44,977 nucleotides of DNA from an uncultured Acidobacteriota bacterium (lineage in GTDB: Bacteria > Acidobacteriota > Thermoanaerobaculia > Multivoradales > SZUA-115), in the NCBI GenBank assembly GCA_937867335.1, contig CALMKX010000111.1, forward strand, positions 1-44,977, read 5' to 3'. Below the pieces are notes generated by a model that made no database searches, was not told the DNA's origin, and was given only the letters and a program-made list of their open reading frames with translations. A program made the position numbers and the translations under genes. Within the stretch, counting starts at the first letter, position 1. Each line of letters opens with the position of its first letter. Positions 31,896 to 34,919 of this stretch are shown in pieces.

Positions 31896-33500
<1,605 letters not shown>

Positions 33501-33723: not shown

Positions 33724-33729
33724 CATAAT
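33724..33729 (+). promoter_or_regulatory. CATAAT -10-like box 7 nt before ATG 33737
   Basis: Five of six match to TATAAT, preceded by GTG and followed after 7 nt by the start codon, so transcription would begin at or next to the A of ATG. No Shine-Dalgarno is present. Confidence 0.45.
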
Positions 33730-33736
33730 AACCACC

Positions 33737-33967
33737 ATGTTCGCACCCAAAGTCGCTCAACATCGTCAGCCGCTTCTCCTTCTCGAACGTCTGCGACCCC
33801 AGGTTCGCGAGGTCTTCGGGCGCCACCAGGTGCCGGAACAAGAGGCCGAGCGAATGGTCCAGCAGCTGGTGTTGGCCCTCCTCTACAAGTGGGATGGCAT
33901 CACCAACCATGAGTACTGGCTGCTGAAGACGCTCGAGCAGAAGTGCCAGCGCCTCTACGGCGAATAG
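33737..33967 (+). CDS. Small protein resembling sigma-factor region 2 only
   Basis: 76 aa, helical, no signal. The second half, E-A-E-R-M-V-Q-Q-L-V-L-A-L-L then W-D-G-I-T-N-H-E-Y-W-L-L-K-T-L-E, aligns by eye with sigma-70/ECF region 2.1-2.2 (D-L-V-Q-E-x-F-L-x-L ... P-x-x-W-L-L-x-x-A-R-N); in sigma factors a promoter-melting and -10-reading part and region 4 would follow, but here the protein stops (Q-R-L-Y-G-E). It could bind the core RNA polymerase clamp as a decoy or be a sigma remnant; this is inference from pattern. ATG 33737 sits 7 nt after a CATAAT box without ribosome site. A very strong terminator follows, so it is a compact single-gene unit. Confidence 0.7.
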   Translation: MFAPKVAQHRQPLLLLERLRPQVREVFGRHQVPEQEAERMVQQLVLALLYKWDGITNHEYWLLKTLEQKCQRLYGE

Positions 33968-34019
33968 GCACGGCGGCTTCTGAGTCGAGCTGATCGCTCG
34001 ACATCAATGTGTTAGTACG

Positions 34020-34058
34020 AGCTCTGGGCTCACGGGAAACGTGAGCCCAGAGCTTTTT
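34020..34058 (+). terminator. Strong Rho-independent terminator
   Basis: Perfect 15-bp stem AGCTCTGGGCTCACG (34020-34034) / CGTGAGCCCAGAGCT (34040-34054), loop GGAAA, then TTTT. A smaller 7-bp hairpin (33984-33990 with 33996-34002) precedes it. It ends the small-protein unit and may also block leftward transcription of the SprT-like gene. Confidence 0.95.
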
Positions 34059-34115
34059 AGTATTGGCAAGAGCTAATTTTCTCGAGAGCTGGTGCTGTGG
34101 CCCGCTGGGTCCGAC

Positions 34116-34919
34116 TTAGCAGCGTTTGAGCAACCAATCCAGGTTCTGTTCGAGCCACAGGCTCGCAGCCTGGTAAGCCGGAAAGCTCTGCTCCGCCTGG
34201 TAGAACTCGGGAGGATGAAGGCTTCGTCGGCCGCGGCAGGGGGTGGGCTGGGGCATCGAAGCGTGCAGCATCTCGTGGAACACCACGGCCGCCACCACAT
34301 ACCGAGGCACCTGGGAGTGGTCGAGCGCCGGGTGGATGCGGATCAGGTTGCTGGCGTACGAGTAGCTTCCGAGTCGGATGGAGCTCCGGCCGCCGCGCAG
34401 GGTCTTGCCCAGAGACCGCGTCCGCGCAGCCGCAGCCGGGCGGCGGCCCCAGGTGATCGAAGCGTCCAGTCGATTGTCGAAGTGCTCCCGGCTCAGCTCG
34501 CCGTAGATCGCGTCGAGGTCGTGAGCTTCGCCCTGGGCGATCAAGCGTGGTGCTCGCTTCAGGGCTTGGGTCCGCCGCTCGGGTGCGGGCCTGGCCTGGG
34601 TGAAGAACTGGCGGATGGTGTTGAGGTGGCGCCGACGGTCCCTGGCCCGACCGGTCACCCAGCGGATCAGGGCCGAGAGAACCTCGTCCGGGGCGCGAAG
34701 GAACGAGCGGTCCAGCCTCAGTGCGATCGCCGACAGGCCATCTGCGATCGGACGAACCGAGGCGATGCGCTGCAGGTTGTCGGTCAGCGTGAGCTCCACC
34801 GTGCGACCTGGGAGCAGAGCCTGCAGGCGGGAAAGCAGGCGACTCCGGCCCTCCTCGGCGGCGGGCTCGGCCGGCTCGGCAAAGAGCTCGAGCTGCTCTG
34901 GAGGATTCTCGTCCGGCAT
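34116..34919 (-). CDS. SprT-like zinc metallopeptidase-fold protein
   Basis: 267 aa. The C-terminal domain has the zinc motif H215-E-M-L-H219 with a further His at 235 (R-S-L-H-P-P-E-F), as in SprT/WSS1-like and DUF45 proteins; this fold includes proteases of DNA-protein crosslinks, but the bacterial members are poorly characterised. The first 20 residues are Pro/Glu-rich; about 30-110 form a separate alpha/beta region. ATG 34919 is chosen for coding quality; an ATG at 35117 with AAAGGA 7 nt upstream would add 66 Arg-rich residues whose codons look non-coding. No partner gene: it lies alone between a terminator and a divergent porin-like gene. Confidence 0.75.
   Translation of the reverse strand: MPDENPPEQLELFAEPAEPAAEEGRSRLLSRLQALLPGRTVELTLTDNLQRIASVRPIADGLSAIALRLDRSFLRAPDEVLSALIRWVTGRARDRRRHLNTIRQFFTQARPAPERRTQALKRAPRLIAQGEAHDLDAIYGELSREHFDNRLDASITWGRRPAAAARTRSLGKTLRGGRSSIRLGSYSYASNLIRIHPALDHSQVPRYVVAAVVFHEMLHASMPQPTPCRGRRSLHPPEFYQAEQSFPAYQAASLWLEQNLDWLLKRC

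Follow-up and report, generated by a model that had tools for sequence, protein, structure and literature searches.

The open reading frame considered here lies in a 44,977-nt stretch of DNA (the window) from a 5.56-Mb genome of an uncultured Acidobacteriota bacterium (G000), and it encodes a protein of 76 residues that we call a mini, as we do its short relatives. The locus contains the following features.

31896-33500, strand opposite to the mini: PEPCK gene upstream of the mini (Pfam PEPCK_ATP, E 9.5e-222)
33724-33729, + strand: CATAAT, a -10-like box 7 nt 5' of the mini ATG, suggestive only
33737-33967, + strand: mini coding sequence, ATG start, 76 aa, predicted stand-alone degenerate ECF sigma region-2 domain
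34019-34060, + strand: intrinsic terminator oriented for the mini, with a 16-pair stem (34019-34055), a 5-nt loop and a T run
34116-34919, convergent with the mini: downstream gene with an HExxH-like motif seen by eye

The first-pass annotation had described a compact unit here, and the description is partly borne out. The codon usage of the mini is gene-like: its score is 12.2, and of the window's 187 spurious ORFs of 60 aa or more, just 2 reach this value. The score was itself trained on the window. The terminator is near perfect, as had been claimed (-33.6 kcal/mol; one found against 0.3 expected). Region 4 is likewise missing as described: past the stop at 33967 the frame closes again 15 codons later, 148 nt are left before the next gene, and neither room nor frame for region-4 coding DNA is present downstream. 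The -10-like box exists at its described place and, if real, would imply a leaderless mRNA, but a promoter scan gave no sigma-70-type site at these positions, so the box is only suggestive. The protein of the convergent gene has no Pfam match at E 1e-5.

By sequence comparison, the mini is homologous to region 2 of ECF sigma factors. The match to Pfam Sigma70_r2 (PF04542) alone is weak (E 0.076 and 13.3 bits, below the curated cut-off of 24 bits) and covers profile positions 1 to 64 of 71, but the full-length ECF sigmas of its own genome give E values from 2e-11 to 2e-9 and those of relatives reach 2e-14, with up to 46 to 47% identity in region 2; the sigma similarity that had been proposed is in this way confirmed indirectly. 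Four full-length proteins, two from G000 and two from G007, score 35 to 43 bits on Sigma70_r2 (40 to 42 for the G000 pair). Elsewhere in the host genome, six places match the mini (E 2e-11 to 5e-5), and two of these are minis as well. With the single window protein as query, a pattern scan of genome contigs and viral contigs gave no close homologs and a PDB sequence search gave chance matches only; the single NCBIfam match, RepA_IncFII at E 0.022 with 14.5 bits where the cut-off is 70, was put down to chance. Eight other minis had no Sigma70_r2 match in Pfam (E limit 0.1 for three of them and 1 for the other five), which weakens the single-sequence evidence for the set, and the link of the set to sigma factors therefore comes from matches to full-length sigmas and from the profile.

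The AlphaFold (AF2) model of the window mini, built from four aligned sequences, has a pLDDT of 83.5 and consists of helices at residues 5-18, 20-29, 34-54, and 58-74. In the structure comparison, which had been proposed earlier, ECF sigma-2 structures are its best alignments. The best six Foldseek matches are all sigma chains, at E near 1. In a second comparison, 20 of the 23 top rows are sigma factors by title, with Z values of 5.6 to 7.6 that, being below 8 for a helical bundle, are supportive of a sigma-2 fold and not proof of it; the other three are transcription complexes with the chain not named. CnrH and BldN, among the 20, are counted as sigma factors by name. The model aligns with residues 13-88 of E. 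coli sigmaE, and the protein ends at the point where its full-length relatives carry YWRxRR. Given the profile span and the sigmaE alignment, the mini contains segment 2.3 and the start of the 2.4 helix, which we take to lie in these residues, and only the YWRxRR tail and region 4 are missing. The earlier reading of the protein as regions 2.1-2.2 was therefore right about region-2 homology but not about a stop before the promoter-melting part, since the protein runs through 2.3 into 2.4.

At E 1e-5, a profile made from 11 minis picked up relatives, full-length sigmas included, in 32 of the 72 genomes that represent the order. Matches that end at most 4 aa from the profile end were called minis, and those with at least 70 further residues were called full-length; 63 of the 101 profile hits served as full-length rows (at least 70 aa remaining, profile start no later than 15, a tryptophan in residues 40 to 80). 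Twenty minis were found in 8 of the 72 genomes, in three families: four in G007, three each in G000 and G002, and two each in G001, G009, G017, G022, and G028. Two intermediates (L092 and L177), which keep YWxxRR and lack region 4, were set apart from these 20; L177 lies in the host genome itself (C194), with a TPR gene at L131:3784-5163. Across a sample of the phylum, 6 of 396 genomes match, all in the same order, and with 13 candidates scored per genome the absence elsewhere is weak evidence.

Five mini ortholog pairs have dN/dS values of 0.13, 0.16, 0.25, 0.25, and 0.33, which place them under purifying selection; orphan pairs across genera or species are L045/L046 (0.16), L090/L091 (0.25), and, outside these five, L006/L046 (0.18, dS near saturation), and further values are 0.28 for L034/L041 and 0.80 for L086/L088. 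The two pairs that contain the window copy gave 0.39 and a saturated value, its nearest relatives being about 40% identical with synonymous sites near saturation, so that the dN/dS check speaks for the five related pairs and not for the window copy. The suggestion that a truncated sigma has been kept for another use is well supported by the 20 minis in 8 of 72 genomes and by the low ratios of the five pairs. Three genomes of the family share an orphan mini behind glgC-glgA (L099:4596-4868, L100:4733-4990, L101:4911-5147; dN/dS 0.16 and 0.18). In addition, of 15 minis inspected, 4 (L088, L089, L090, L091) have an extended -10-like element, TGnTAnnnT, 6 to 8 nt 5' of the ATG, against 7 of 303 called genes at any spacing of 4 to 9 nt, which suggests leaderless mRNAs; the motif was chosen after looking at the minis and is a lead only, and it is absent before the window mini, which has CATAAT instead.

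At 12 positions, 56 or more of the 63 full-length rows share one residue, and the 20 minis retain these residues very unequally. W61 is present in all 20, L62 in 11, P33 and C70 in 10 each, E38 in 8, T65 in 6, and R75 in 3, and Y73 and W74 in none. On the clamp-facing helix, D36 falls from 60/63 full-length rows to 1/20 minis, D39 from 61/63 to 0/20, and Q42 from 59/63 to 1/20; A37 is kept in 19 of 20. Judged by these residues, the minis thus appear to keep the scaffold and to lose the polymerase and DNA contacts. The window copy is the most sigma-like mini: it retains 7 of the 12 positions (P33, E38, Q42, W61, L62, T65, C70) and is the sole mini with Q42. It is without D36, D39, Y73, W74, and R75, and so does not have the full set of near-invariant clamp-side and DNA-tail residues expected of a functional ECF sigma, nor does it have region 4 for -35 recognition.

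In the sigma-2 tree, mini and full-length labels require 2 changes against 18 in shuffles, and AU tests reject none of three arrangements, namely, all minis in one clade (p 0.44), the window copy with full-length sigmas (p 0.47), and the minis together with the two intermediates (p 0.39). The end branch of the window copy is short (0.34). The PEPCK neighbourhoods of G001 and G002 have PEPCK, a dehydrogenase (Glu/Leu/Phe/Val dehydrogenase, Pfam-named for G002 only), and the downstream gene, and neither holds a mini there that could be a positional ortholog of the window copy. The simple form of a recent truncation, which the first-pass annotation had set against its own proposal, does not fit the data, as no region-4 DNA follows the mini and the TPR genes linked to minis separate from those linked to full-length sigmas.

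These TPR genes, all of one family, lie directly downstream of 9 of the 20 minis and of both intermediates. The same family adjoins full-length ECF sigmas too, and G000 holds 20 members of it. In L084, L085, and L104 the stop of the mini and the start of the TPR gene overlap by 4 nt, which suggests coupled translation. The other 11 minis, the window copy among them, have no TPR gene beside them, and no TPR match was found within the 45-kb window. In a tree of 37 TPR rows (6 full-linked, 10 mini-linked, 21 other), full-linked and mini-linked members separate, with 6 label changes against 14.1 in shuffles; the mini-linked rows include the genes of the two intermediates and omit that of L103, which is cut by the contig end. 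An N-terminal HxxxCxxC motif, which we read as like zinc anti-sigma domains, is found in 5 of the 10 mini-linked proteins, is absent from the other 5, and is found in 10 of all 37 rows. The TPR partner of L092 has a weak similarity to the ChrR anti-sigma model that falls below the cut-off (E 2.6e-4), and a scan of six TPR partners gave no Pfam zinc-finger or anti-sigma domain. For one partner, whose model is of moderate confidence (pLDDT 72), the list of fold matches has RapF at rank 41 and RapI at rank 49; an RRNPP-like fold was rejected for this partner because generic TPR scaffolds such as LGN rank above the Rap proteins.

Two further arrangements were observed. In G000, ruvA and ruvB flank a mini, and the counterpart in G002 reads ruvA-mini-TPR-ruvB (L098:4809-5069, L096:4878-5135), with a TPR gene that the G000 locus does not have. 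Full-length ECF sigmas also form tandem paralogous arrays, some alternating with TPR genes (L127, L132-L139, L144), and several genomes have these clusters at one recurrent chromosomal position, next to metK and to genes for electron-transfer flavoprotein (both identified by eye).

Just upstream of 5 of the 9 TPR-linked mini loci is a small gene for a secreted-type peptide with a "..DPxG" motif. Across the 513 kb of loci scanned, 10 different small ORFs combine a hydrophobic N-terminus with a C-terminal [MLIVF]DP[NDTS]G, as follows.

L084:4468-4707, DPxG peptide ORF
L085:4585-4893, DPxG peptide ORF
L086:4695-4988, DPxG peptide ORF
L088:3490-3762, DPxG peptide ORF
L093:4682-5011, DPxG peptide ORF
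L130:4051-4356, DPxG peptide ORF
L133:7421-7765, DPxG peptide ORF
L184:826-1095, DPxG peptide ORF
L191:2855-3142, DPxG peptide ORF
L195:865-1212, DPxG peptide ORF

Nine of the 10 are on the same strand as the nearest called TPR or sigma gene and 114 to 653 nt from it, and the remaining one belongs to L191, a TPR locus in which the TPR gene was not called. The motif, often repeated within the peptides as ..(M/I/F/V/L)DPxG, was noticed first and then searched for in loci picked for sigma or TPR genes, so that the unbiased background is the 45-kb window, where no DPxG peptide occurs. Such peptide genes beside TPR and sigma or mini-sigma genes possibly mark peptide-TPR signalling modules in Acidobacteria; neither a peptide gene nor a TPR gene accompanies the window copy, which does not itself have the paired arrangement typical of RRNPP systems.

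The mini was earlier proposed to occupy the clamp helices of RpoC and so block sigma binding. Its sigma-2 fold is predicted to be intact, and because Q42 and E38 are kept, the window copy itself may still bind the clamp. D39 and Q42 are taken here to be residues 403 and 406 of sigma70, a mapping made by motif with no solved complex behind it. An excerpt of PMC8321222 has residues 403 and 406 contacting the beta-prime coiled coil and changes at 403, 406, and 407 merely weakening clamp binding, which again leaves room for a mimic. On the other side, the near disappearance from the minis of D36, D39, and Q42, nearly invariant in the full-length rows, speaks against clamp occupation, and we regard this role as unlikely. 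About as doubtful is a decaying remnant without function. The window copy is in an orphan position, its counterpart is missing beside PEPCK, the dehydrogenase, and the downstream gene in G001 and G002, and its near-saturated synonymous sites make its dN/dS uninformative, all of which would suit decay, but gene-like codon usage, a dedicated terminator, the short end branch, and the conservation of other orphan minis (L045/L046, L006/L046 with dS near saturation, and L090/L091) argue for a maintained gene. That the frame is a chance ORF is barely credible: a Pfam match that is by itself under the cut-off would suit it, but E 2e-14 to full-length sigmas of relatives, the codon usage, and the fold model point the other way.

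The mini could also be one half of a two-subunit sigma, as RsoA (YvrHa) is with SigO in Bacillus subtilis. Among described proteins that consist of sigma-2 only, RsoA comes closest: it is a small stand-alone region-2 protein without region 4, of the same size class and domain content, at about 9 kDa in an excerpt of PMC10141391. It initiates transcription with a separate sigma-4 subunit, according to part of PMC8103513, whereas no region-4-only frame was seen in G000: the 55 PF08281 and 50 PF04545 places are all in frames of at least 171 aa, counted from stop to stop, so that a short gene could hide inside a longer frame. All 20 minis have, moreover, lost the tyrosine and tryptophan of the DNA-contacting tail, and the neighbour of a mini, where present, is a TPR protein. 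We rate a split sigma as still less likely than clamp mimicry.

We favour, at a probability of roughly 0.4, the reading that the mini is a partner or decoy for TPR/anti-sigma-like regulators and no longer directs transcription; overlapping TPR genes together with the loss of transcription residues give this role the best support. It would be a free-standing ECF sigma-2 domain that keeps its fold and has lost residues of the clamp-facing helix and the DNA-contacting tail, that most likely has ceased to direct transcription, and that may work as a protein-binding module for such regulators, either as a partner or as a decoy competing with full-length ECF sigmas for them. An excerpt of PMC7406223 describes anti-sigma helix 4 as contacting sigma regions 2.1/2.2, the clamp-binding face; these parts are retained in the mini, which makes binding of an anti-sigma by an isolated sigma-2 domain possible in principle. 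Binding would occur in cis where a TPR gene adjoins and in trans for the orphan window copy, the latter being proposed because the host genome holds 20 TPR homologs. The reading draws on homology, predicted fold, residue loss, gene neighbourhoods, and selection on five related pairs, from which we infer TPR binding, the decoy direction, and action of the orphan in trans; the HxxxCxxC motif in 5 of 10 partners and the weak ChrR match also speak for it. Against it stand the 11 minis with no TPR neighbour, the ruvA-mini-ruvB locus of G000 with its missing TPR gene, the missing zinc motif in the other 5 partners, the negative Pfam scan of six partners, and the retention of Q42 and E38 in the window copy.

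Known systems share parts of this arrangement. ECF sigma factors (group IV) of the local acidobacterial clusters have region-2 homology with the minis and the same TPR-gene family beside them, but the minis are without region 4, the YWRxRR tail, and D36/D39/Q42 (Q42 being kept in the window copy). ECF42 sigma factors are described as having a C-terminal TPR extension fused to a full sigma, whereas in the minis the TPR gene is separate and adjacent and the sigma is cut down. The nearest sigma mimic is PhyR of the alphaproteobacterial general stress response; it reportedly has both sigma domains and a receiver domain, and its sigma-like domain is said to bind the anti-sigma NepR, whereas the mini is sigma-2 alone. 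A PhyR-NepR entry is among the fold matches of the mini (Z 4.6). In PMC8103513 the PhyR sigma-like domain is degenerate and not for transcription initiation, in which it resembles the mini. The sole pointer to mimicry of this type is that TPR/anti-sigma-like genes adjoin 9 of the 20 minis, and the window copy has no such neighbour. RRNPP peptide-receptor systems pair a TPR protein with a neighbouring gene for a small secreted-type peptide, as is found at five minis; unlike them, the modules seen here are in Acidobacteria, include a sigma or mini-sigma, and are known from genes alone, and beside the window copy both of these genes are absent. In the open-licence literature on ECF/TPR, region-2-only sigmas, Acidobacteriota sigmas, RRNPP in Acidobacteria or Gram-negatives, and zinc anti-sigmas with TPR, we found no account of these sigma-2 minis.

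A wider scheme, speculative and on balance improbable as a whole, would be a peptide-TPR-sigma partner switch outside Gram-positives, in which the minis act as "pseudo-sigmas" of an acidobacterial signalling module not described before. A TPR protein inside the cell, in many cases with a zinc motif like that of anti-sigmas, would sense a small exported ..DPxG peptide; the sigma-2 domain would be the exchangeable ligand of this protein, and orphan minis such as the window copy would be trans decoys tuning about 20 TPR proteins and several full-length ECF sigmas. As proteins with a common domain and altered contact residues, the minis are a natural contrast for RsoA-like proteins. If the minis do bind TPR regulators, a sigma factor would have been reduced to one domain and turned from a polymerase subunit into a signalling ligand, and a large acidobacterial network of TPR proteins, peptides, and ECF sigmas would have been missed by annotation because the minis fall below the Pfam cut-off.
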